A program made the translations under genes and the position numbers. Source: Mesorhizobium sp. M7A.T.Ca.US.000.02.2.1 (GTDB taxonomy: Bacteria > Pseudomonadota > Alphaproteobacteria > Rhizobiales > Rhizobiaceae). From it: a stretch of 35,853 nt of DNA. The notes under the pieces were generated by a model. The model did no database searches, had not been told where the DNA came from, and was given only the letters and a program-made list of their open reading frames with translations. Where the stretch lies: NCBI RefSeq assembly GCF_003996995.1, contig NZ_RZTT01000009.1, positions 1 to 35,853 of the forward strand, read 5' to 3'. This document shows, in pieces, positions 2,484 through 35,804 of this stretch (within the stretch, counting starts at the first letter, position 1; each line of letters begins with the position of its first letter).

Positions 2484-4016
2484 ATGGCCCCGACGATTTT
2501 GGAGATGCGCGACATCACCAAGACGTTCCCAGGCGTGAAGGCGCTGTCGAACGTCAACCTCAGCGTCGAGGAAGGCGAGATTCATGCCGTGGTCGGCGAG
2601 AACGGCGCCGGCAAGTCGACGCTGATGAAGGTGCTGTCGGGCGTCTATCCCTCAGGAACCTATGACGGCCAGATCATCTTTAACGGCGGGGAATGCCAGT
2701 TCAAAGGCATCCATGACAGCGAGCGCAAGGGCATCGTCATCATCCACCAGGAACTTGCGCTGGTGCCGATGCTGTCGATCGCCGAAAACATCTTCCTCGG
2801 CAACGAGCACGCCAGATACGGCATCATCGACTGGAATTCCAACGAGGCGCGCACCAGCGCCCTGTTGAAGAAGGTGGGCCTCAAGGAGGACCCCAAGACG
2901 CTGATCACCAATATCGGCGTCGGCAAGCAGCAGCTGGTCGAGATCGCCAAGGCGTTGAGCAAGGAAGTCAAGCTCCTGATCCTGGACGAGCCGACGGCGT
3001 CGCTCAGCGAAAAGGACAGCCAGGCGCTGCTCGACCTTCTGCTCGAATTCAAGCGGCAGGGCATGACCTCGATCCTGATCTCGCACAAGCTCAACGAGGT
3101 GAACCGGGTCGCAGACAAGGTGACGGTGATCCGTGACGGGCGCACCATCGAGACGCTGGCCAAGAAGGACATCTCTGAAGACCGCATCATCACTTCGATG
3201 GTCGGCCGCTCACTCGACGACCGCTATCCGCCGCGCGAGCCTGACATCGGCGAGGTCGTGTTCGAAGTGAAGAACTGGTCGGTCTATCACCCGATCCATG
3301 CCGAGCGGCAGGTGATCAAGGGCATCGACATCAACGTGCGCAAGGGCGAAGTCGTGGGCATTGCCGGGCTGATGGGCGCTGGCCGCACCGAATTCGCCAT
3401 GAGCCTGTTCGGCCGCTCCTACGGCCGCCGCATCTCCGGCGAGGTGCTGCTCAAGGGCAAACCGGTCGACGTATCCTCGGTGAGCAAGGCGGTCCAACAC
3501 GGCATCGCCTACGTCACAGAGGACCGCAAGACCTACGGTCTCAACCTCATCGACCATATCAAGCACAACATCACGCTGGCCAATCTTGGCGGCGTCTCGC
3601 GCCACAGCGTGATCGACGACATGCGCGAGCTCGCCGTTGCCAACGACTATCGCAAGAAGACCAATATCCGCGCTTCCAGCGTCTATCAGATGACCGGCAA
3701 TCTCTCCGGCGGCAACCAGCAGAAAGTGGTGTTGTCGAAATGGCTGTTCGCCGACCCGGACGTGCTGATCCTCGACGAGCCGACGCGCGGCATCGATGTC
3801 GGCGCCAAGTACGAAATCTATACGATCATCGCCCGTCTCGCGGCTGAGGGTAAGGCGATCGTCGTCATCTCGTCGGAAATGCCGGAATTGCTCGGCATCA
3901 CCGACCGCATCTACGTCATGAACGAAGGGCGCATCGTGGGCGAAATGCCCGCCGCGGAAGCAAGCCAGGAAAAAATAATGCGCGCCATCGTTCGTGGAGA
4001 AGGAAAAGCAGCATGA
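2484..4016 (+). CDS. gguA: GguA sugar ABC transporter ATPase (two ATPase domains)
   Basis: This 510-residue protein has two fused ABC ATPase domains, as is usual for carbohydrate importers of the MglA/XylG/GguA class. Domain 1 has Walker [10 protein letters not shown] (about 38-46), a degenerate signature region ([15 protein letters not shown]) and Walker [12 protein letters not shown]. Domain 2 has a degenerate P-loop (GLMGAGRTE), an intact signature [15 protein letters not shown] and Walker [15 protein letters not shown]. This asymmetry is normal for the family. The ATG at 2484 follows AAGGAGCGG; an upstream in-frame start at 2430 adds 18 unconserved-looking residues. The stop overlaps the gguB start by 4 bases (ATGA), so the two are probably translationally coupled. 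It works on the inner face of the cytoplasmic membrane with GguB. Confidence 0.94.
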
Positions 4017-5299
4017 GCACCGAAAGCGCCCCCGCCCCGCAGGGCAACGTCGCCGAAGAGCAGCGCCCACGCATCGCCGTCTCGGCGCTGACGACGAACC
4101 TGCGCGAATACGGCCTGATCCTGGCGCTGATCGCCATCATGGTGTTCTTCCAGTTCACCACGAACGGAACGCTGTTCAAGCCGGTGAACCTGAGCAACCT
4201 GGTACAGCAGAACTCGTTCATCATCGTGATGGCGCTGGGCATGCTGCTGGTGATCGTCTCCGGCCATATCGACCTGAGTGTCGGATCGGTGGCGGGCTTC
4301 ATCGGCGCGCTGGCGGCGATGATGATGGTCATCTGGCCGCTCGGTCCGTTCAGCAACCCGCTGGTGGTCTCGATCATCTGCCTGATCGTGGGCGGCGCGA
4401 TCGGCGCCGCGCAAGGCTATTGGATCGCCTATCACCGAATACCGAGCTTCATCGTCACGCTGGCCGGCATGCTGATCTTCCGCGGCATCTGCCAGGCCCT
4501 GCTGGGCGGCGGATCCTCGGTGGGGCCGCTACCCGATGGCTTCAAGGCGCTCAGCTCCGGCTTCATCCCGGATGTCATCGGCCCGCTGACGCTGATCCCG
4601 CCGACAGTGAACGCGGCCGGCAAGACCATCATGGGCAGCGGCCTGACTCTGCACATGACGACGATCGTGCTGGGCCTGATCGCTGTGCTGGCCTACGCCT
4701 ATTTCGGGGTGAGGACGCGCCGCAAGCGCGAACGCCATGGCTATGAGGCCGAGCCCTTTGCCCTGTTCGTCGTCAAGACGCTGGTCGGCAGCGCGCTGGC
4801 GCTGTTCCTGGTCTACCAGTTCGCCAGCTACAGGGGCCTGCCGGTGGTGCTGCTCGTCATGGGCGTGCTGATCTCGCTGTTCGTCTTCGTCACCAAGCGC
4901 ATGACCATCGGCCGCCGTATCTATGCCATGGGCGGCAATTCCAAGGCCGCGCAGCTGTCAGGCATCAACACCGAGCGGCTGACGCTGATGGTGTTCATCA
5001 ATATGGGCGTGCTGTCGGCGCTCGGCGGCCTGATCATCGCGGCGCGACTGGGACAGGCGGTGCCGGCCGCGGGCCTCGGCAGCGAACTCGACGTCATCGC
5101 CGCCGTCTTCATCGGCGGCGCCTCGGCGATGGGCGGCGTCGGTCAGGTCATCGGCGCGGTGGTCGGCGGCTTCATCATGGGCGTGATGAACAACGGCATG
5201 TCGATCATGGGCGTCAATGTCGACTGGCAGCAGGTGGTCAAAGGCCTGGTGCTGCTCGGCGCCGTGATCTTCGACGTCTACAACAAGAACAAGGCTTGA
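4013..5299 (+). CDS. gguB: GguB sugar ABC transporter permease
   Basis: This 428-residue integral membrane permease belongs to the branched-chain amino acid/ribose-type permease family. About ten or eleven hydrophobic stretches are visible, for example [48 protein letters not shown] and the glycine-rich [18 protein letters not shown] near the C-terminus. The motif [13 protein letters not shown] after the second hydrophobic segment is typical of the XylH/MglC/GguB group. A basic loop ([17 protein letters not shown]) near residues 230-250 enlarges it relative to RbsC-type permeases, as is usual for XylH/GguB. The start overlaps the gguA stop by 4 bases. It pairs with GguA and receives sugar from ChvE. 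Confidence 0.93.
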
Positions 5300-6774: not shown

Positions 6775-7545
6775 TCAATAAATATCGAAGTCGAAATACT
6801 TGGCCTGGATCTTCTTGTAGGTGCCGTCGGCGACGATCGCGTCGATGGCCGCGTTGAGCTTGTCGCGAAGTGCTGTGTCTTCCAAGCGAACGGCAATACC
6901 GGCTTGCGTTTCCGTGCCCTTGACGTCGCCAACCAGTTTGCAGCAGCCGTCGCTCGCCTTCTTCAGCCAGTCCATCAGCACGAACTTGTCCGAGATCACA
7001 GCGTCAAGACGACCGTTGGTCAGATCGGTGATCGCCTCTTCCTGGGTCGGATAGAGCTTTGCCTCCGCGCCTGCCTTGCCATACTCATTCTGGGCGTAGT
7101 CGGCCTGCGTGGTCGAGGCCTGGGCGCCGACCGTCTTGCCGGCCAGTGCCGATGGTTCGGTCGAGGTGAGATCGCTGTCCTTCGGCGCCACCAGAGCCAG
7201 CGGTGTCGTATAATATTTGTTGGTGAAGGCGACCTGCTTCTTGCGCTCCTCGGTGATGCTCATCGAGGCGATGATGGCGTCGAATTTCTTCGCCTGCAAA
7301 GCGGGAATGATGCCGTCCCAGTCCTGGGTGACGATCTCGCACTCGACCTTCATCTGCGCGCATAGTGCATTGGCGATGTCGATGTCGAAGCCTTCGACCT
7401 TGCCGTCAGCCGTAATGGTGTTGAACGGCGGATAGGCGCCCTCCGTGCCGATCTTGATTTTCTCCTGCGCCTGCGAAAGCGAGCCGGCCGCCACCACCAG
7501 CATGGCAGCGCCTGCTGCCGATATGATCCATTTCGAAATCTGCAT
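6775..7545 (-). CDS. Amino-acid-type ABC substrate-binding protein (orphan)
   Basis: This 256-residue periplasmic protein belongs to the SBP_bac_3 (HisJ/ArgT/AotJ-like) family. The ATG at 7545 follows AGGGGAACC, and the first 26 residues form a signal peptide (MQISKWIISAAGAAMLVVAA, then GSLSQA). The mature start KIKIGTEGAYPPFNTITADG, together with VEGFDIDIANALC, WDGIIPALQAKKFDAIIASM and DAVISDKFVLMDWL, is diagnostic of polar or cationic amino-acid binding proteins, most like lysine/arginine/ornithine binders. No permease or ATPase gene lies nearby, so its membrane partner must be elsewhere. It reads in the same direction as the dCTP deaminase gene, 97 bases after it. The substrate is inferred from family resemblance only. 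Confidence 0.9.
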   Translation of the reverse strand: MQISKWIISAAGAAMLVVAAGSLSQAQEKIKIGTEGAYPPFNTITADGKVEGFDIDIANALCAQMKVECEIVTQDWDGIIPALQAKKFDAIIASMSITEERKKQVAFTNKYYTTPLALVAPKDSDLTSTEPSALAGKTVGAQASTTQADYAQNEYGKAGAEAKLYPTQEEAITDLTNGRLDAVISDKFVLMDWLKKASDGCCKLVGDVKGTETQAGIAVRLEDTALRDKLNAAIDAIVADGTYKKIQAKYFDFDIY

Positions 7546-7642
7546 TTTCTTGGTTCCCCTTGAACGCCGGCATCTTGACGACCAGCAAGGCAGCCAAGCA
7601 TGGCGAGCCAGCGCAGGCAAGTATTTTGCCTGACGGCGGCGC

Positions 7643-8737
7643 TCAGCGCGCGGCGCGGAAATGCTTGGACAGCTTCAGGCCCTGCGCCTGGTAGTTGGAG
7701 CCGAGATCGGTGCCGTAGAGGGCCTGCGGCCGCTTCAGCATGTGTTCGTAGACCAGCCGGCCGACGATCTGGCCATGGTCGAGAATGAACGGCACTTCAT
7801 GGCTGCGCACTTCCAGCACCGCCCGGCTGCCCGTGCCGCCAGACGCGGAGTGGCCGAAGCCCGGATCGAAGAAGCCGGCATAGTGGACGCGGAATTCGCC
7901 GACCAGCGGATCGAAGGGCGTCATCTCGGCGGCGTAGAGCGGCGGTACGTGCACCGCCTCCTGGCTGACGAGGATGTAGAACTCGTCGGGGTCGAGCACC
8001 AGTTCGCCGGCGCCGCTCTTGTGGATCGGCTCCCAGAAGTCGACGACTTCCTGCGCCGCGCGCTTGTCGACATCGACGAGGCCGGTGTGATGCTTGCCGC
8101 GATAGCCGACCAGCCCGTTCTGATCGCCGTTGAGGTCGATCGACAGCGCGATGCCGCCGCCGGAAATATTCGGCGGCTCGGTGGCGACCAGCGTCTGCGC
8201 GCGATGCAACTCGTGCAGCTCGGCTTCCGAGAGCAGCGCATTGCCGGTGCGGAAGCGGATTTGCGACAGGCGTGAGCCGGTGCGCACGACGATCGGGAAG
8301 GTGCGGGGGCTGACTTCCAGAAACAGCGGGCCGTGATAGCCGGCAGCGATCTTGTCGAACTCGTGGCCGCGATCGGTCATGACCCGGGTGAAGATGTCGA
8401 GCCGCCCGGTCGAGCTCTTCGGATTGGCCGAGGCCGAAATGTCAGCCGGCAATGCCAGGCTTTCGAGCAAGGGCACGATATAGACGCAGCCGGTCTCCAG
8501 CACCGCGCCCTCGGCAAGATTGATCTCGTGCAGCTGCAGCCGGTCGAGCTTTTCCGAGACCTTGTGGTTGGGGCCGGGCAGGAAGGAGGCCCGCACCCGC
8601 CAGGCCTTGTCGCCGAGCCTGAGATCGAGACTGGCCGGCTGGATCTGGTCGGCGTCGAGCGCACGCGCCGACTTCAGCGCGCCGGACTGGAACAGCGCCG
8701 ATATGTCCTGGTCGGGAAGAATGCCTGTCTGCCGCAA
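7643..8737 (-). CDS. dcd: dCTP deaminase, double-domain alphaproteobacterial type
   Basis: This 364-residue protein is the long form of 2'-deoxycytidine 5'-triphosphate deaminase, which converts dCTP to dUTP for thymidylate synthesis in the cytoplasm. It appears to carry two dUTPase-like folds in tandem: the first half has SANPKSSTGRLDIF (about 105-118), and the second half has HYAGFFDPGFG, then a loop and RAVLEVRSHEVPFILDHGQIVGRL (about 280-335). The ordinary Dcd subunit is about 190 residues, so this is roughly a fused pair. The start is a TTG at 8737 preceded by GGAGTGGAGCC; no better ATG is in frame. It is divergent from metZ, with a 273-base shared region. Confidence 0.85.
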   Translation of the reverse strand: MRQTGILPDQDISALFQSGALKSARALDADQIQPASLDLRLGDKAWRVRASFLPGPNHKVSEKLDRLQLHEINLAEGAVLETGCVYIVPLLESLALPADISASANPKSSTGRLDIFTRVMTDRGHEFDKIAAGYHGPLFLEVSPRTFPIVVRTGSRLSQIRFRTGNALLSEAELHELHRAQTLVATEPPNISGGGIALSIDLNGDQNGLVGYRGKHHTGLVDVDKRAAQEVVDFWEPIHKSGAGELVLDPDEFYILVSQEAVHVPPLYAAEMTPFDPLVGEFRVHYAGFFDPGFGHSASGGTGSRAVLEVRSHEVPFILDHGQIVGRLVYEHMLKRPQALYGTDLGSNYQAQGLKLSKHFRAAR

Positions 8738-21407: not shown

Positions 21408-22157
21408 TCAGGCCGCGAGCCGGGCGATGCGTTGCAATCGCCGCAGCGTGGTGTCGTCCTGCAGCGCCTGCTGGAAAAGCGAAATCTCCTGATCGATGCG
21501 GTCGCAGAGGGCCTCGGTGTTCCCTTTCAGCAGGCCGCGCGTCTGCAGCAACGCGGCGACCGGCTTCTTGACGAGTTGTCTTGCTCGGCCGAGGGCCGCC
21601 TCCTCGACGGTGCCTCCCGGCACGATCTCCGCGACAAGGCCGAGCGCCCTGGCGTCCTCGGCGCGAAGCGTGTCGCCGAGGCAGAAGAAGCGGAAGGCAC
21701 CGGCGTAGCCGAGCTTCTGCGGCGCCAGGATGCTGGTCGCCGCATCCGGCACCAGGCCGAAATCGACGAACGGCACCCTGAACGTGCTCTCATCGGACGC
21801 GATCACCATGTCGCAGTGGAACAGGATGGTGCAGCCGACACCGACGGCATCGCCATCGACGCATGCCAGGATGGGCTTTGGAAACGTCGCCAGCGTGCGG
21901 AACAGGTCGGTGACGGCGGCGATCAGTTTCTGGTGCTTGGTGGCGTCGAGGAATTCGGAGAAGTCGCCGCCAAGACAGAAACAGCCTGCCAGGCCGCGCA
22001 GCACGACGACGCGAACCTCCTCATTGTCGGCGGCTTCATGGAAGGTCCTTGCCAGGCTTTCATAGGCTCTCCTGTCCAGCACCGGCCGGCCGTCGCTCGA
22101 CGACACGGTGACGACCAGCGTGTGGTTGCGAAGTTCAGGTTGCGGGTGTGTGCTCAT
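21408..22157 (-). CDS. Crotonase-fold protein linked to luxI; isomerase-like active site
   Basis: This 249-residue single-domain crotonase starts 14 bases after the luxI stop. The oxyanion-hole pattern is present (CFCLGGDFSEF, about 59-69, and DGDAVGVGCTILFHCD, 101-116). The two glutamates that hydratases use are replaced: T110 stands where GCEL-type hydratases have Glu, and the PE of the second motif is PF (129-130). Instead D138 in GLVPDAATS sits where PaaG and delta3,delta2-enoyl-CoA isomerases have their acid base. I therefore expect a double-bond isomerase or related enzyme, not a normal hydratase. An ATG at 22175 that overlaps the luxI stop (ATGA) is an alternative start; 22157 has GGAG before it. 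Its likely role is to prepare the acyl chain for LuxI. Confidence 0.85.
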   Translation of the reverse strand: MSTHPQPELRNHTLVVTVSSSDGRPVLDRRAYESLARTFHEAADNEEVRVVVLRGLAGCFCLGGDFSEFLDATKHQKLIAAVTDLFRTLATFPKPILACVDGDAVGVGCTILFHCDMVIASDESTFRVPFVDFGLVPDAATSILAPQKLGYAGAFRFFCLGDTLRAEDARALGLVAEIVPGGTVEEAALGRARQLVKKPVAALLQTRGLLKGNTEALCDRIDQEISLFQQALQDDTTLRRLQRIARLAA

Positions 22158-22171
22158 GGCTGTCTCCGATC

Positions 22172-22810
22172 TCATGACGCACGCCTTTGCCCGAGCATGT
22201 CGGGATATCCCCTGGCCAACACGGGAGCAAAATGATTGCGGCGCGACCGCACCACATCGAGTGTGTGTTCGTTGAAGGTCAGCAAGGTGGCGACGACCTG
22301 CTGGTTGCCATAGGTGCGCTGATAGCCCAGCGGGGTCGCCAGGAAATGCAGCTGCAAGGCGCGCAGCACCCACATCGGCTCGAACTCGATGATCACCTTG
22401 TCGACGCCGCGCTTCAGCCCCCACTCGACGAAACCGGCAATCAGTTCGGTGCCGACGGTCGAAACGCCACGACGGCCATCACGAAAACCGGGAGCCACCG
22501 CGTAGCGGGTCAATTCCCAGATGTTTGGACCCGATGGCGGCGTTCCTTCGGAAAGATCGGTCAAGACCTCGGTCAGCAGATGTGGCCGCGTCGTCGGCAA
22601 CATCCTCTGATAACCCGCCACTTCACCGCCTCTGATGACGATCTGATGGACCGCCTCGTCGTGGTCGAACTGGTCAAGTTCGAGCCCGTCGGGCCGCCTG
22701 AGGTCATCCCACCCCATCTCTTCGACGAATATCTTGTAGCGCAAACGATGGACGGCCTCCCAAAGGTCGGGACGTTCCATCAATTCCTGGGTTGTAAGGG
22801 AAAAAAGCAT
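22172..22810 (-). CDS. LuxI-type acyl-homoserine lactone synthase
   Basis: This 212-residue protein has the length and invariant residues of the family: R24, F28 and W34 in LRYKIFVEEMGWDD, D46 and D49 in LDQFDHDEA, R69 in GYQRML, and E99 and R102 in WELTRYAV. It makes an N-acyl-homoserine lactone from S-adenosylmethionine and an acyl-ACP or acyl-CoA. The ATG at 22810 follows AGGAGA. It is 96 bases after luxR on the same strand and followed closely by a crotonase-fold gene. The T-V-G segment near 120 (GVSTVGTELIAGF) resembles synthases with longer or oxo chains, but the acyl group cannot be read from sequence. Confidence 0.94.
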   Translation of the reverse strand: MLFSLTTQELMERPDLWEAVHRLRYKIFVEEMGWDDLRRPDGLELDQFDHDEAVHQIVIRGGEVAGYQRMLPTTRPHLLTEVLTDLSEGTPPSGPNIWELTRYAVAPGFRDGRRGVSTVGTELIAGFVEWGLKRGVDKVIIEFEPMWVLRALQLHFLATPLGYQRTYGNQQVVATLLTFNEHTLDVVRSRRNHFAPVLARGYPDMLGQRRAS

Positions 22811-22889
22811 TCCGCCGTCTCCTGCGTTCAGAGGAAGATACGGCCGTGCTTTGATGAGAAAATTGCGTGATCGCGTAGGCAAAAATTCC

Positions 22890-22908
22890 AGGTCGGCACG
22901 GCCGACCT
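22890..22908. promoter_or_regulatory. 19-bp inverted repeat between luxR and luxI (lux-box or terminator)
   Basis: AGGTCGGC (22890-22897) and GCCGACCT (22901-22908) form a perfect palindrome with a 3-base centre, overlapping the luxR stop codon (22907-22909). Its size fits a lux-type box 80 bases before luxI. On the minus strand it is followed by GGAATTTTTG, so it could instead be a weak terminator of luxR. A TTGCCT hexamer follows as a possible luxI -35. Confidence 0.55.
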
Positions 22909-23638
22909 AACTAATGTAGCCGCGCCGTATCGCTTCCGCGACGGCCTGCACCCTGTTGACGGCACCTAGTTTGCTTTTGGCGTTAAGAAGATGTTTCTCC
23001 GAGGTGTGTTCGGAAATGCCGAGGATTTGCGAAATCTCCCATTCGGACTTGCCGACGGCGGCCCATTGCAGGCATTCGCGCTCGCGCGGCGTCAGCACGA
23101 TATGATCGATGGTGTTGCTCGCCATGGTGTGGAGTTGCATGGCGCGGCCAACCGCGTAGGTCGAGACCAGCGACACCTGGCCAAATTCGGCGGCGGACAA
23201 TTCCACAGCCTCGCCGCCGAGCGACACCATGACGATCTGGCCGTCAAGCGTGATCAACGGAAAGGCCAACCCATCACGCAATTTGAAAGCGCCGGCATCG
23301 CCCATCACCTCGCCGCTGCTCTTGTCTATGCGGATGCCCTGCGACGCCTCGTGCCACTGGAAGGGCGCCTGCAATTGTTTCATATGGCTGACGACCGGGT
23401 CATGGTCGACATAGTTGCGCGCGACATAGCGCTCCAGCCATTCGCCCGGCCAATCGCAGAGAAGCACATGCTGCTTTTGCTGGCCGGCCGGCGTGCCTGG
23501 CTGCGGTACGGTTCCCGCCATCAGCGCGGTGAGGCCGAAATCCGATGTTATGCCCAGCAGCCTTTCACAGACCGCCGCCGCCGTTGCGGCGTGCTGCAGT
23601 TGGTCTATGTATTCCAGCGTGCGATCGAACTGACCCAT
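22907..23638 (-). CDS. LuxR-type quorum-sensing receptor/regulator
   Basis: This 243-residue protein has an N-terminal autoinducer-binding domain with the key residues W67 and Y71 (WLERYVARNY), D80 and P81 (DHDPVV), W95 (FQWHE) and G123 (RDGLAFPL). The C-terminal LuxR helix-turn-helix follows (LTPRERECLQWAAVGKSEWE, then ISQILGISEHTSEKHL, about 183-218). All six usual ligand-domain positions are present, so it should bind an acyl-HSL, most simply the product of the adjacent synthase. The ATG at 23638 is preferred over a longer frame to 23707, which would cross the divergent promoter region. It is divergent from a binding-protein gene. Confidence 0.93.
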   Translation of the reverse strand: MGQFDRTLEYIDQLQHAATAAAVCERLLGITSDFGLTALMAGTVPQPGTPAGQQKQHVLLCDWPGEWLERYVARNYVDHDPVVSHMKQLQAPFQWHEASQGIRIDKSSGEVMGDAGAFKLRDGLAFPLITLDGQIVMVSLGGEAVELSAAEFGQVSLVSTYAVGRAMQLHTMASNTIDHIVLTPRERECLQWAAVGKSEWEISQILGISEHTSEKHLLNAKSKLGAVNRVQAVAEAIRRGYIS

Positions 23639-29245: not shown

Positions 29246-31465
29246 TCAGGCTGCCTGCTTCACGTCGCCTTTCGCATAGGGATCGAAGCGCTGGTAGAAG
29301 GTCTCGCCCTTCTCGGCCATGTCGAGCAGCAGCTTGGGTGCCTTGAACTCGGCGCCGTATTTCTTCTGCAGGTTCTTGGCGATCTTGACGAACGCCTTGG
29401 CGCCGATGCCGTCGATGTAGGACAGCGCACCGCCGGTGTAGGGCGCGAAGCCGAAAGCGAGGATCGAGCCGACATCGGCCTCGCGCGGGTCGGTGACGAT
29501 GCCTTCTTCCATCACCCGCGCCGCTTCCAGCGCGATGGTGACCAGCAGCCGCTGCTGCAGTTCCTCATAATCGACCTTCTCGGGTGCAAGCTGCGGATAG
29601 AGCTCCCTAAGGCCCGGCCACAACTTCTTCTTGGCGGGCTTTGCCGGATAATCGTAAAAACCCTTGCCGTTCTTGCGGCCGAAGCGGCCGTGATCGTCGA
29701 CCATGGCGTTGATCAGCGCCATCTGCTTGGGATCGACCGCCTTGTCGCCCAGATCCCTGATGGTCTGCTTCATGATCTTCTGGGCAAGGTCGATGGCCGT
29801 CTCGTCGGTCAGCGCCAGGGGGCCGACCGGCATGCCGGCCGCCTTCGCTGCATTCTCGATCATCGGCGCGGGAACGCCCTCGATCAGCATCTTGTAGGCT
29901 TCCGACATGTAGCGCAGCACGCAGCGATTGACGTAGAAGCCGCGCGTGTCGTTGACGACGATCGGCGTCTTCTTGATGGCGCGAACGAAGTCGATGGCGG
30001 TGGCCAGCGCCTTGTCTCCGGTCTTCTTGCCCAAAATGATCTCGACCAGCATCATCTTGTCGACCGGCGAGAAGAAATGGATGCCGATGAAATTCTTCGG
30101 CCGCGCAGAATTCTTCGCCAGGCCGGTGATCGGAATGGTCGAGGTGTTCGACGCGAAGATCGCCGATGGCTTCAGCACGGCTTCCGCCTGTTCGGTGGCG
30201 CTCTTCTTCACGCTCGAATCCTCGAAAACGGCCTCGACCACCAGATCGCAGCCGGCAAGGTCGGCATAGTCCGCCGTCGGCGTGATCAGCGACAGCAGTT
30301 TGTCCTTGTCCTCCGGCTTGGCGCGGCCCTTCTTGACCTGATCCGAGATCAGGCTGTCGGAATGCGCCTTGCCCTTGGCAGCCGACTCCAAATCACGGTC
30401 GAGCAGCACCACCGGGATGCCGGCCTTGGCGGTGACATAGGCGATGCCGGCGCCCATGAAGCCGGCGCCGAGAATGCCGACCTTCTTGAACTTGGTTTCG
30501 GGCACGCCGGCCGGGCGGCGGGCGCCCTTGTTCAGTTCCTGCAGCGACACGAACAACGAGCGGATCATCGCCGCCGCTTCCTTGGTCTGCATGATCTCGG
30601 TGAAATAGCGCTGCTCGATGCGCAAACCGGTGTCGAACGGCACCAGCAGGCCTTCATAGACGCATTTGAGGATCGCGGCGGCGGCCGGATAGTTGCCGTA
30701 AGTCTCGCGACGCAGGATGGCGATGGCCGGCGGCCACAGATTGAAGCCGGCGGGCGAATAGATCTGGCCGCCGGGCAGCTTGAAACCTTTCTCGTCCCAT
30801 GGCGCCACCGGCTTCAGGCCATTCCTGATCATCGCCTTGGCGGTCTCGACGAGCCTGGCCGGCTCGGCGATCTCATGGATCAGGCCCATAGACTTGGCCT
30901 TCTGCGGCGACAGTGTCTGGCCCGAGGTCAGCATCTGCAGCGCTTGCTGCTGATCGGTCAGCCGCGGCACGCGCTGGGTGCCGCCTGCGCCCGGGAAGAT
31001 GCCGATCTTCACCTCGGGAAGCGCCATCTTCACCTTGTCGCTGTCGGCGGCGACACGGCCGTGGCAGGCGAGCGACAATTCGAAGGCGCCGCCCATGCAG
31101 GTGCCGTTGATCGCCGACACCCACGGCTTTCCGCAAGTTTCCAGCTTGCGGAACAGGCCGGTCATCATGCCGGCATTGTCGAACAGCGCCTTGGTCGCCC
31201 TTTCGGCGTCCTTGCCTTTTTCCGCGGCGAAGGTCGTCAGCATCTTCTGCAGCAGGGTGATGTCGGCACCGCCGGAGAAGGTGTCCTTGCCGGAGGTGAT
31301 CACTGCGCCCTTGATGGCGGCGTCACCAGCCACCTTGTCGACAATGGCGTTCAATTCCCGCATCGCCTCTTCGGTGAAAACGTTCATCGAGCGGCCAGGC
31401 ATGTCCCAGGTGACCAGCGCAATGCCGTCGGCGTCGATGTCGAGGGTGAAATTGGTGTAGCTCAT
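29246..31465 (-). CDS. fadB: Bifunctional enoyl-CoA hydratase/3-hydroxyacyl-CoA dehydrogenase
   Basis: This 739-residue trifunctional-type alpha subunit carries out two steps of beta-oxidation. The N-terminal crotonase domain (about 5-200) keeps both hydratase glutamates, E129 in GGAFEL and E151 in [13 protein letters not shown]. The NAD-binding dehydrogenase domain begins at [18 protein letters not shown] (about 327-344), with [12 protein letters not shown] and [14 protein letters not shown], and two C-terminal helical dehydrogenase domains follow ([29 protein letters not shown]). The ATG at 31465 follows GGGGAGAG. It lies 14 bases after the thiolase gene, and the pair probably forms a multienzyme complex. 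Confidence 0.94.
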
Positions 31466-31479
31466 CGTTTCTCTCCCCG

Positions 31480-32688
31480 TCAGACGCGTTCGATGATGGT
31501 TGCGGTTCCCATGCCGGCGCCGATGCACAGCGTCACCAGAGCGGTGTTGAGATCGCGGCGCTCGAGTTCGTCCAGCACGGTGCCGAAGATCATCGCGCCG
31601 GTGGCGCCGAGCGGATGCCCCATGGCGATCGCACCGCCATTGACGTTGATCTTGTCGTGATCGATGTCGAAGGCCTGCATGTAGCGCAGCACCACCGAAG
31701 CGAAGGCTTCGTTGAGCTCGAACAGGTCGATGTCCGAGAGCTTCATCTTGGCGCGCTTCAACAGCTTCTCGGTGACGTCGACCGGGCCGGTCAGCATCAG
31801 CACCGGCTCGGAGCCGATGTTGGCGAAGGTGCGAATTCGCGCGCGCGGCTTCAGCCCCATCGCCTTGCCCGCCTTCTTCGAACCGAGCAGCACGGCGGCG
31901 GCGCCGTCGACGATGCCGGACGAATTGCCGGCATGATGGACGTGATTGACCTCTTCCACCTCAGGGTGCTTCTGCACTGCGACGGCATCGAAGCCGCCCA
32001 TTTCGCCTGGCATGACGAAGGACGGGTTGAGCGAGGCCAGCGACTGCATGTCGGTCGATGGGCGCATATGTTCGTCATGGTCGAGGATGGTCAGGCCGTT
32101 CTGGTCCTTGATCGGGATGACGGAGTTCTTGAACCGGCCATCGGCCCAGGATTTGGCGGCGCGCTTCTGGCTCTCGACCGCATAGGCGTCGACGTCGTCT
32201 CTGCTGAAGCCGTATTTGGTGGCGATCAGGTCGGCCGAGATGCCTTGCGGCACGAACCAGCCGGGCAGGCCTACGGACGGATCCATGAACCAGGCACCGC
32301 CGGAGGCGCCCATGCCGACACGCGACATCGATTCGACGCCGCCGGCAATGACGATCTCATCGGCGCCCTGGGCGATCTTGGCGGCGCCGAAATTGATGGC
32401 GTCGAGCCCGGAAGCGCAGAAGCGTGAGATCTGCATGCCGGGCGCCTTGGTGTCGTAGCCGGCCTCGAAGGCGGCGGCGCGCGGAATGACCGAACCGGCT
32501 TCGCCGACCGGATCGACGCAGCCGAAGATGATGTCATCGACAGTGCCGGTGTCGAGCCCATTGCGATCGCGCAGCGCCTCAAGCGTCTTGGCGGCAAGCC
32601 GCACCGCCGGCACCTCGTGCAGCGATCCGTCCTTCTTGCCCTTGCCGCGCGGTGTGCGCACGGCGTCATAGACATAAGCTTCAGCCAT
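31480..32688 (-). CDS. fadA: Acetyl-CoA C-acyltransferase (thiolase)
   Basis: This 402-residue thiolase carries out the last beta-oxidation step. The acyl-accepting cysteine is C91 in [11 protein letters not shown]; the C-terminal catalytic His and Cys motifs are [15 protein letters not shown] and [19 protein letters not shown] is also present. The ATG at 32688 follows AAGGAG. It starts 33 bases after the frameshifted acyl-CoA dehydrogenase and ends 14 bases before the fadB-like gene, so it is clearly in one operon with it. Confidence 0.95.
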
Positions 32689-32721
32689 TTGCTTGCTCCT
32701 TAGGTTTGCCTGATGTCGCTC

Positions 32722-33892
32722 TCAGAGAGAGCGGCCGATCAGCAATTTCATGATCTCGTTGGTGCCGCCGTAGATGCGCTGGACGCGGGCGTCGCGGAAC
32801 ATGCGGGCGATCGGGTATTCATTCATGTAGCCATAGCCGCCATGCAGTTGAAGGCATTCGTCGACGACTTTTCCCTGCAGGTCGCTGAGCCAGTACTTGG
32901 CCATCGACGCGGTCACAGGATCGAGGCCGCCGGCGATGTGGCGGGTGACGCAATCATTGTAGAAGACGCGGCCGACGGTGGCATCGGTCTTGAGTTCGGC
33001 CAGCTTGAACTGGGTGTTCTGGAAATCGATGATCGCCTTGCCGAACGCCTTGCGTTCCTTGACATAATCAATGGTCAGCGCCAGCGCCCGCTCGATCATG
33101 GCAATGGCGCCGGTGCCGATCTGCAGCCGCTCCTGCGGCAATTGCTGCATCAGTTGGACGAAGCCCTGCCCTTCCTCATGGCCGAGCAGGTTGGAGGTCG
33201 GCACGCGCATATCGTTGAAGAACAGCTCCGACGTGTCGTTGGCCTTGAGCCCGATCTTGTCGAGGTTGCGGCCGCGCTGAAAACCTTCGACCTCGTCGGT
33301 CTCGACGACGATCAGCGAGGTGCCCTTGGCACCCTTCTCCGGATCGGTCTTGGTGACGACGATGATGAAGTTCGCAAGCTGGCCGTTGGTGATGAAGGTC
33401 TTGGAACCATTGATCTTGTATTGGTTGCCATCCTTCTGCGCCCGCGTCTTGACGCCCTGCAGGTCGGACCCGGCGCCAGGCTCGGTCATGGCGATGGCGC
33501 CGATCAGCTCGCCGGTCGCCAGCTTCGGCAGCCATTTCTTCTTCTGCTCCCTCGGAGCCATAGTGGAGGATGTAAGGGGCGACGATCGAATTGTGCAGGC
33601 CGATGCCGAACCCGTCGACGCCGACATGGCCGATGGCCTCGATGATGGCGCTCTCATGCGCGAAGGTGCCGCCGGAGCCGCCATATTCCTCCGGCATAGA
33701 GGCGCAGAGCAGGCCGGCGGAGCCTGCCTTCAGCCAACTCTCGCGATCGACCATCTCGTTCTTCTCGAACTCGTCGTAGCGCGGCGCGATCTCCTCCGAC
33801 ATGAAGCGATGCGCCATGTCGTAGAGCATGCCGACCTCGTCCGCCGCCCAAGCGGGCTTCGGAAGGCCAAGGATTTCAGCTGGGTTGGTCAT
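32722..33892 (-). pseudogene. Acyl-CoA dehydrogenase interrupted by a single-base insertion
   Basis: The gene reads from an ATG at 33892 as a normal acyl-CoA dehydrogenase (HRFMSEEIAPRYDEFEKNEM, LLCASMPEEYGGSGG, GLHNSIVAPYILHYGSE). It then loses frame near 33549-33551; the rest continues in another frame from EQKKKWLPKLATGELIGAIA and MTEPGAGSDLQGVKTRAQKDG to YGGTNEIMKLLIGRSL at 32722. Removing one C from the CCC at 33549-33551 (GAGGGAG to GAGGAG on the coding strand) joins YGSE to EQKKKW exactly and gives 389 residues, the usual length. FAD-binding and catalytic regions are otherwise intact. It is either a recent inactivation or a sequencing error. It is upstream of the thiolase gene in the same direction. 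Confidence 0.9.
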
Positions 33893-33929
33893 GCTGGTAT
33901 GATACTCCTCCCGACATGCATCATCGAAA

Positions 33930-33997
33930 CTGAGGGCGGCGCACTGCCGCAGCGACCCCTCCCGACCCTTCGGGCCACCCTCCCCTCAAGGGGGAGG
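33930..33997. repeat. REP-like palindromic module between two acyl-CoA dehydrogenase genes
   Basis: CCTCCCC (33979-33985) pairs with GGGGAGG (33991-33997), with a smaller CCCTTCGGG hairpin (33965-33973) and a GGCGGC...GCCG arm before it. The module order (G-rich stem, GTGGCCCGAAGGGTC, GGAGGGGTCG) parallels half of the 6603-6767 element. It may end or stabilise the dmdC-like transcript. Confidence 0.6.
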
Positions 33998-34013
33998 AGG
34001 ACGCCGATCATCT

Positions 34014-35804
34014 TTAGAACGCTTCCGCCGGCAGTGCCATCAATGTGTCGGCGCCGCTCGAAATGCGGGCGAGATGCGCCGACGTCTCCGGCATGATCCG
34101 CTCCATGAAGAAGCGCCCCGTCACGACCTTGTTGTCGTAAAAAGATTGCGCGCCATTGGCGTCCGTCTTGCCAAGTGCCACCTTGGCCATCTGCGCCCAC
34201 ATATAGCCCAGAGCGACGAGGCCGAAGAGATGCATGTAGTCGGTCGAGGCGGCACCGGCATTGTCGGGCTTGGCCATGCCGTTCTGCACCAGCCACATGG
34301 TGGCGGCCTGCAAATCGTTGAGACCTTTCTTCAGCGCCTTGGTGAATGGCGCCATCTTCTCGTCGGAGCGGTTCTCCTCGCAGAACTCACCGACTTCCTT
34401 GAAGAAGGCCTGCACGGCGCGGCCGCCATTCAGGCCGAGTTTGCGGCCGACGAGGTCGAGCGCCTGGATGCCGTTGGCGCCTTCATAGATCATGGCGATG
34501 CGGGCATCGCGCACGAACTGGCTCATGCCGTGCTCTTCGATATAACCGTGACCGCCGAACACCTGCTGCGCCATGACGGCGTGGTCGAAGCCCTTGTCCG
34601 TGAGCACGCCCTTGACCACCGGTGTCATCAGGCCGGTGTAATCGTCGGCGGCCTGGCGGTCCTTGTCGTCGCCGGAGCGGTGGGCAATGTCGGACTTGAT
34701 CGCCGTCCACAGCGCCAGCGCGCGGCCGGCCTCGTTGAAGGCCTTCATGGTCATCAGGCTGCGGCGGATATCGGGATGGACGATGATCGGGTCGGCCTTC
34801 TTGTCCGGCGCCTTCGGCCCCGACAATGAGCGGCCCTGCAAACGGTCCTTGGCGTAGCCGACAGCGTTCTGATAGGCGATCTCCGACAGCGACAGCCCCT
34901 GCAGGCCCACACCAAGGCGCGCCTCGTTCATCATCGTGAACATCGCCTTCAGGCCGCCATTGGCCTCGCCGAGCAGCGTGCCCTCAGCCTCGTCATAGTT
35001 CATGACGCAGGTCGAATTGCCATGGATGCCCATCTTCTCCTCGATCGAGCCGCAGGAGACGGTGTTCCTGGTGCCCGGATTGCCCGATGCGTCGAGCTTG
35101 AGCTTCGGCACGATGAACAGAGAGATGCCCTTGACGCCTTCCGGCGCACCCTCGATGCGGGCCAGTACCAGATGGACGATGTTGTCCGACATGTCGTGTT
35201 CGCCGGCCGAGATGAAGATCTTCTGGCCTGAAATTTTATAGGTGCCATCGCCGTTCGGCACCGCCTTGGTCCGCAACAGGCCCAGATCCGTGCCGCAATG
35301 CGGCTCGGTCAGGTTCATGGTGCCGGTCCAGGCACCCTCGATCATCCTCGGCAACCATGTTGACTTCTGCTCGTCGGTGCCGTGGGTGATGATCGCGGCG
35401 ATCGCGCCTTGCGTCAGGCCCGGATACATCATCAAGGACATATTGGCCGAGACCATATATTCGGCGACGGCGGTATGCACGGCATAGGGCAGGCCCTGGC
35501 CGCCGAACTCGACGGGTGCAGCCAATCCCATCCAGCCGCCCTCGCGATACTGGTCGAAGGCCTCCTTGAAACCTTTCGGCGTGGTCACCGAGCCATCGTC
35601 GTGACGCACACAGCCTTCCATGTCGCCGACACGGTTCAGCGGATGCATGACGTTTTCGGCGAGCTTGGCGCCTTCGGCGAGGATCGCCTCGAGCACATCG
35701 GGCGTGGCGTCGGCAAATCCGGGAAGGTTCGAATAACGCTGATAACCCAGAACCTCGTTGAGCACGAACAGCGTATCCTGGACCGGAGCCCTGTATGTCG
35801 GCAT
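34014..35804 (-). CDS. Acyl-CoA dehydrogenase with C-terminal extension, DmdC-like
   Basis: This 596-residue flavoprotein is of the long acyl-CoA dehydrogenase group that includes 3-methylmercaptopropionyl-CoA dehydrogenase. Order: an N-terminal extension ([18 protein letters not shown]), the helical domain, the beta domain with [19 protein letters not shown] and [16 protein letters not shown], then the catalytic C-terminal helical domain ([40 protein letters not shown]) and an extra C-terminal domain of about 120 residues. The glutamate in YEGANGIQ is where the catalytic base lies in this group. The ATG at 35804 follows GGTGGAG. Orthologues in rhizobia head the acyl-CoA dehydrogenase-thiolase-fadB cluster, as here. 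Whether it acts on sulfur compounds or fatty acyl-CoA is not decided by sequence. Confidence 0.9.

Follow-up and report, generated by a model that had tools for sequence, protein, structure and literature searches.

In Mesorhizobium japonicum MAFF 303099, Suo et al. (2023, mBio, PMC10470506) have described a quorum-sensing circuit that consists of R1, I1 and the crotonase gene mlr5639, which starts 8 bp after I1. The product of this circuit was identified as N-(2E,4E-dodecadienoyl)-homoserine lactone (2E,4E-C12:2-HSL) by NMR and a synthetic standard, and R1 is its receptor. Little signal was made after an in-frame deletion of mlr5639, and the deletion could be complemented. Some 90% of nearly 500 Mesorhizobium genomes have R1-I1 homologs, and the unit of three genes was also reported from Nitratireductor and Methylopila; the 5Z-C12:1-HSL of a marine Mesorhizobium is cited in the same paper. 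The authors hypothesized that the crotonase aids the formation of 2E,4E-C12:2-CoA but left the reaction itself open, and closed by asking what part the linked crotonase plays in the signal. The main text of the paper contains no word beginning with “isomerase” or “glycosyl”, and no later paper on the crotonase enzyme was found in the literature searched. In the Roseobacter group, Ziesche et al. (2018, PMC6356624) reported 2E,5Z- and 3E,5Z-C12:2-HSL and remarked that a biosynthetic shift into conjugation could yield the 2E,4E compound. The acyl chains of these signals are those of the substrate and the intermediate of the isomerase proposed below, although they come from bacteria different from Mesorhizobium and the available text of that report names no enzyme.

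The luxR-luxI-crotonase cassette analysed here lies in a 35,853-nucleotide stretch of DNA from Mesorhizobium sp. M7A.T.Ca.US.000.02.2.1 (the window) and is the Mesorhizobium R1-I1-crotonase quorum-sensing circuit, i.e., a system already published. The single-clade tree, the census of residue 138, the lux box, the genomes that have lost the crotonase and the link to a downstream glycosyltransferase are new here. As the original prediction had it, the genes lie head to tail in one direction, on the minus strand, with 96 and 14 bases between them: a luxR-type receptor (22907..23638; 243 aa, 732 bp; Pfam Autoind_bind 1.9e-23, GerE 1.9e-16), a luxI-type synthase (22172..22810; 212 aa; Autoind_synth 3.2e-18) and a crotonase-fold enzyme (21408..22157; 249 aa; ECH_1 6.4e-39). 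A second in-frame crotonase ATG lies at 22175 and overlaps the stop codon of luxI (ATGA), as had also been noticed. The inner ATG (22157) was taken as the start because GGAG, read from the sequence as the likely ribosome-binding site (22164..22167, minus strand), stands six bases upstream of it.

Gene order, direction, the position of the crotonase right behind luxI and the genus are shared with M. japonicum. The R open reading frame has 732 bp in both, whereas the gap between luxI and the crotonase is 14 bp in the window and 8 bp in M. japonicum (PMC10470506). The window crotonase is the counterpart of mlr5639, as judged from gene order and family rather than from the MAFF 303099 sequence. 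All three proteins show 93–95% identity with their counterparts in M. jarvisii and M. loti CJ3sym; against M. ciceri bv. biserrulae WSM1271 and an M7A strain, identity is 100% for the crotonase and LuxI and 99% for LuxR. From the window, a crotonase-dependent, unusual unsaturated homoserine lactone had been predicted, and 2E,4E-C12:2-HSL of the corresponding M. japonicum cassette is such a signal (PMC10470506).

The gap between luxR and luxI contains an 18-base lux box, CCTACGCGATCACGCAAT (22862..22879, minus strand), whose centre is 60.5 bp upstream of the luxI start; the inverted repeat of M. japonicum is 61.5 bp upstream of I1 (PMC10470506). It matches the palindrome of sister cassettes, ATTACGTGATCACGTAAT, at 14 of 18 positions and is the sole site in the 35.9-kb window with at least 13 matches. 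Matches of at least 13/18 were present in 63 of the 78 named-genome loci with a usable luxR-luxI gap (two of 80, L120 and L123, have none). A search of the draft genome for a lux-box regulon gave 7 forward matches against 13 in the reversed control, so that no regulon could be read from it. The closest solved chains of LuxI are PDB 5w8a (7e-30), which we take to be BjaI, and the 4-coumaroyl-HSL synthase 6wn0 (2e-25), both ahead of LasI (1ro5, 1e-14).

A genome survey shows the association of the crotonase with luxI. Within the genus, the crotonase (E 1e-50 or better) was found in 127 of 146 genomes and luxI in 130, the linkage of the 127 crotonases being read at fetched loci only. A scan of named genomes returned 117 crotonase relatives; in all of the best 80, which were kept, luxI lies directly upstream on the same strand, with a gap of −4 to 80 bases, and the neighbourhood is therefore not a matter of chance. 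In a family sample of 394 genomes, 24 contain the crotonase (E 1e-65 or better), spread over 9 of 109 genera. Among the loci newly fetched from this sample (L054–L075), luxI stands beside the crotonase in 22/22 and luxR in 21/22, the exception being L067, where luxR was not seen beside the crotonase in the stretch examined. Since the genome sets overlap, the 138 luxI-linked loci correspond to 99 distinct crotonase sequences. From a class-level search, 29 of the matching loci (L175–L203) were taken for linkage, and none has luxI within the stretch examined.

Both glutamates of enoyl-CoA hydratases had been noted as missing from the crotonase, and T110 (codon 21828..21830) and P129-F130 (F130, codon 21768..21770; both minus strand) are indeed read at the places of the first Glu and of the second (PE). 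In the alignment, positions 110/129–130/138 are T/PF/D in the window crotonase, E/PE/G in the hydratase of the same genome (PRK05862) and in the window FadB, N/AF or SF/D in the six PaaG proteins fetched, and T/PF/E in a paralog from the same genome (L004, PRK06023). The window has its own beta-oxidation genes (29246–35804); the two glutamates of its FadB, already pointed out as an internal contrast, are E129 and E151 when counted from an inner start and E150 and E172 in the 760-aa open reading frame. In the 80 named-genome loci, fadB and fadA gave no match, within flanks that stop short of the expected site of fadB. D138 (codon 21744..21746, minus strand), the proposed catalytic acid/base, aligns with Asp in 6/6 PaaG and with Glu of isomerase-like crotonases, as had been anticipated for this residue. 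While two-glutamate enoyl-CoA hydratases have Glu at 110 and 130, T110 and F130 are found in 138/138 linked loci, in which D65, H114, D116 and D132 are likewise unchanged. Residue 138 is Asp in 134 of these loci and Glu in four. The latter, three from one family of the order (L166, L167 and L169) and one from another (L173), come from a sample of 397 order genomes and show that Asp138 is not required for linkage to luxI. In the class-level loci without a visible luxI, position 138 is Glu in 28 of 29 (L198 by eye) and Val in L186.

These residues place the crotonase close to a group that we label isomerase-like because it contains the Bosea enoyl-CoA isomerase 6lvo and matches human ECI2; the label is our own, as the name given to PRK06023 says no more than crotonase/enoyl-CoA hydratase family protein and 6lvo alone carries an isomerase title among the nearest solved chains. 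L004 and the chains 4nek, 6lvo, 5ve2, 7bor and 3fdu share T110, PF at 129–130, an acid at 138 and the fold with the window crotonase. Yet the five solved chains, aligned to L004, have Glu at the position corresponding to 138, as does L004 itself, whereas the Mesorhizobium-type cassette has Asp. Isomerase-like crotonases outside cassettes also differ in their surroundings: no luxI stands beside those examined, but the window crotonase adjoins one. Scores against NCBIfam models stay below the cut-offs (188.8 vs 282 for PRK06023; 97.6 vs 345.15 for PaaG, TIGR02280), while L004 reaches 435.5 bits against PRK06023. The Glu at 138 that marks PRK06023 is Asp in the window crotonase; the Asp after GL[VI]P at 138 that marks PaaG is present in it, as in 6/6 PaaG. 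PaaG (six of six fetched) thus shares Asp138 and F130 with the window crotonase but has Asn instead of Thr at 110. In Δ3,5-Δ2,4-dienoyl-CoA isomerase (DCI/ECH1), the catalytic triad is D176, E196 and D204 of the rat enzyme. We take the place of D204 to be 138 in the window crotonase, which would be the sole acidic one of the three places if the equivalences hold.

In a tree of 61 rows, in which the Mesorhizobium-type clade is represented by 16 sequences plus the window and the Val138 sequence L186 was left out, the 21 linked crotonases form one clade (100/100) beside unlinked isomerase-like proteins. The Asp138 crotonases form one clade (100/99) inside it. The simplest history suggested by this tree would be that an isomerase-like gene joined luxI a single time and that Glu changed to Asp later.

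AlphaFold modelled the crotonase with a pLDDT of 46 from the single sequence and of 81 from a 37-row alignment; in the latter model, the loop 131–135 beside D138 remains below 50. A Foldseek search with the 37-row model is led by 3fdu, behind which CDY/CDYL domains, isomerase-like chains and one hydratase are mixed. VIA-align ranks a CDY domain first (Z 28.3), hydratase-named chains follow within 1–3 Z units, and human ECI1 (1sg4), ECI2 (2f6q, 4u19) and 6lvo score 26.9–27.9, so that CDY domains, isomerases and hydratases are mixed among the neighbours at Z 25–28. Since these chains rank so close together, the reaction cannot be told from the fold alone.

The reading that we prefer, with a probability of roughly 0.6, is that the crotonase is a single-acid isomerase that would convert 2E,5Z-C12:2-CoA into 2E,4E-C12:2-CoA for LuxI within an autoinduced R1-I1 circuit. 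A putative isomerase activity, which the original prediction had favoured, is well supported by the sequence, namely by the alignment and the phylogeny. Cis-vaccenate (18:1 11Z) is the main rhizobial fatty acid, and we propose it as the origin of the acyl chain: three rounds of beta-oxidation would give 12:1 5Z-CoA, and one further acyl-CoA dehydrogenation would give 2E,5Z-dodecadienoyl-CoA, the presumed substrate of the crotonase. D138, acting as the one acid/base, would abstract a proton from C4, which is doubly allylic, and return one at C6, yielding 2E,4E-dodecadienoyl-CoA either directly or via the 3,5-diene. With the 5Z bond moved into conjugation in this way, the acyl chain would have precisely the 2E,4E form found in the signal. 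LuxI would then couple the acyl-CoA supplied by the crotonase with S-adenosylmethionine, and LuxR would bind the predicted lux box before luxI, leading to autoinduction of luxI and the crotonase. Together with the C12/omega-7 arithmetic, the pattern of residues and the single origin seen in the tree suggest one concrete reaction that may answer the question of Suo et al.

A narrower activity would leave part of this work to the host. As a plain Δ3,Δ2-enoyl-CoA isomerase, the crotonase would only convert the 2,5- to the 3,5-diene (or a 3- to a 2-enoyl chain), and another host enzyme would complete the 2,4-diene. The isomerase-like character of its relatives in the tree, the paralog L004 among them, and the Glu138 retained in four linked relatives fit such an enzyme; the presence of Asp instead of Glu at 138 throughout the Mesorhizobium-type clade hints, weakly, at changed chemistry, and we regard this narrower activity as unlikely. 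The 2E,4E-dienoyl-CoA could also arise by dehydration of 3-hydroxy-4-dodecenoyl-CoA if the crotonase were a dehydratase/hydratase, as many crotonases are hydratases and several NCBIfam hydratase models match it at E values of about 1e-23 to 1e-36, albeit below their cut-offs. However, with Thr and Phe at the two glutamate places of every linked locus, and with both glutamates retained in the hydratase and FadB of the same genome, such a reaction is improbable.

A crotonase without catalysis, which would bind acyl-CoA and pass it to LuxI or otherwise stabilise LuxI, would agree with its tight linkage to luxI and with the CDY/CDYL domains among its closest folds, which are not known as beta-oxidation enzymes. 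Yet an acid occupies position 138 in 138/138 linked loci, and 49 columns are invariant in a diverse alignment of 12 rows; we consider this role very improbable. For the single-acid isomerase, nature provides controls in the linked species with Glu138 and in three genomes that have luxI and luxR but have lost the crotonase.

In the latter genomes, all from the genus (G006, G051 and G114), luxI and luxR are intact and a full crotonase is absent. Of the gene, L044 retains both ends, L046 the 3′ end and L045 nothing recognisable. The three form one clade (SH-aLRT 100) in a quick LuxI tree, for which 98 rows were merged to 88 and which gave long-branch warnings for distant rows. Nine residues of LuxI and twenty-one of LuxR are common to the three, each found in less than 3% of the comparison sequences (72 LuxI and 68 LuxR from named genomes, at least 80% identity), and F143V, M146V and A151T are among the LuxI residues. 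No lux box was recognisable in their luxR-luxI gaps of 263–411 bp, where the matches are 9–10/18. A decay of the lux box in this clade is only suggestive, since the sister group, M. plurifarium and its relatives, is already at 10–11/18.

In all 12 named-genome cassettes whose crotonase is less than 80% identical to that of the window, a family-2 glycosyltransferase-like sequence lies 3′ of the crotonase on the same strand. These cassettes belong to two Nitratireductor, Aquibium, Notoacmeibacter, unplaced Rhizobiaceae/Hyphomicrobiales and three strains labelled Mesorhizobium, and include that of Nitratireductor alexandrii Z3-1, a strain also shown by Suo et al. (PMC10470506). The glycosyltransferase was also found in 17 of 18 family loci outside the genus (L058–L075), and none was seen in the stretch examined of the other 68 named-genome loci (for L100, it reaches 54 bases beyond the crotonase). 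The calls are based on Pfam domains for seven proteins submitted and on tblastn for the remainder. Two of the glycosyltransferases, compared with NCBIfam models, bear a distant likeness to cellulose and PNAG synthases, with scores far short of the cut-offs. A search of the window's own genome, run without a positive control, found none.

The glycosyltransferase behind the distant cassettes is a candidate output gene for the circuit. A wider reading, which we offer tentatively and at somewhat less than even odds, would see in the crotonase a dienoyl-CoA isomerase dedicated to tailoring the signal of an acyl-homoserine lactone system, the first in the literature searched. Derived from a catabolic isomerase-like crotonase that entered a luxRI cassette a single time, it would have been re-tuned from Glu to Asp at its single acid/base for the 2E,5Z to 2E,4E conversion. 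The glycosyltransferase would be a fourth gene of the wider cassette and its direct output, absent from the core Mesorhizobium cassettes, and the LuxI and LuxR of the crotonase-loss clade may have been re-tuned to another signal.

The crotonase gene, proposed to encode a signal-tailoring isomerase, is deleted in one Mesorhizobium clade comprising loci L044, L045 and L046 (genomes G006, G051 and G114, respectively), in which luxR and luxI are both intact. The gaps between luxR and luxI are longer in these three crotonase-less loci, and no clear lux box, i.e., the 18-bp inverted repeat upstream of the window luxI, was found within them.

Further luxI copies were also observed. The genome of the window itself carries a second, distant luxI (L002, contig C110, positions 3970–4521), which is 29% identical and has a luxR-like gene nearby. 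Five other loci (L047–L051) contain second luxI paralogs that share approximately 50% identity with the cassette LuxI and adjoin a luxR gene; no crotonase match was present within the flanking stretches examined. Two of these paralogs, L047 and L048, have a lux-box-like site at −67 that matches 14 of the 18 positions.

In the window, a β-oxidation cluster (fadB-like, thiolase, and acyl-CoA dehydrogenase genes; 29246–35804, minus strand) lies upstream of luxR at a distance of approximately 5.6 kb. One of its acyl-CoA dehydrogenases (32722–33892, minus strand) is apparently split across two overlapping ORFs in different frames, 32722–33684 and 33176–33892, the Pfam analysis covering the former. 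Either the gene is frameshifted or the draft assembly contains an error here.

Among the named cassettes, i.e., the best 80 of 117 crotonase relatives from named genomes, all 12 with a crotonase less than 80% identical to that of the window have a family-2 glycosyltransferase-like ORF downstream of the crotonase on the same strand (L076, L077, L079–L081, L085, L123, L125, L126, L128, L142, and L149). As they stand, these ORFs are approximately 450–720 residues long, the L126 copy being truncated by the contig end. None of the other 68 named cassettes was found to have such an ORF downstream of the crotonase within the flanking stretch examined. At the M. xinjiangense lm94 locus (L085), a second luxR–luxI pair (6875–8354) is located between the crotonase and the glycosyltransferase. 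Possibly, the glycosyltransferase is an ancestral fourth gene of the cassette and an output of the circuit.
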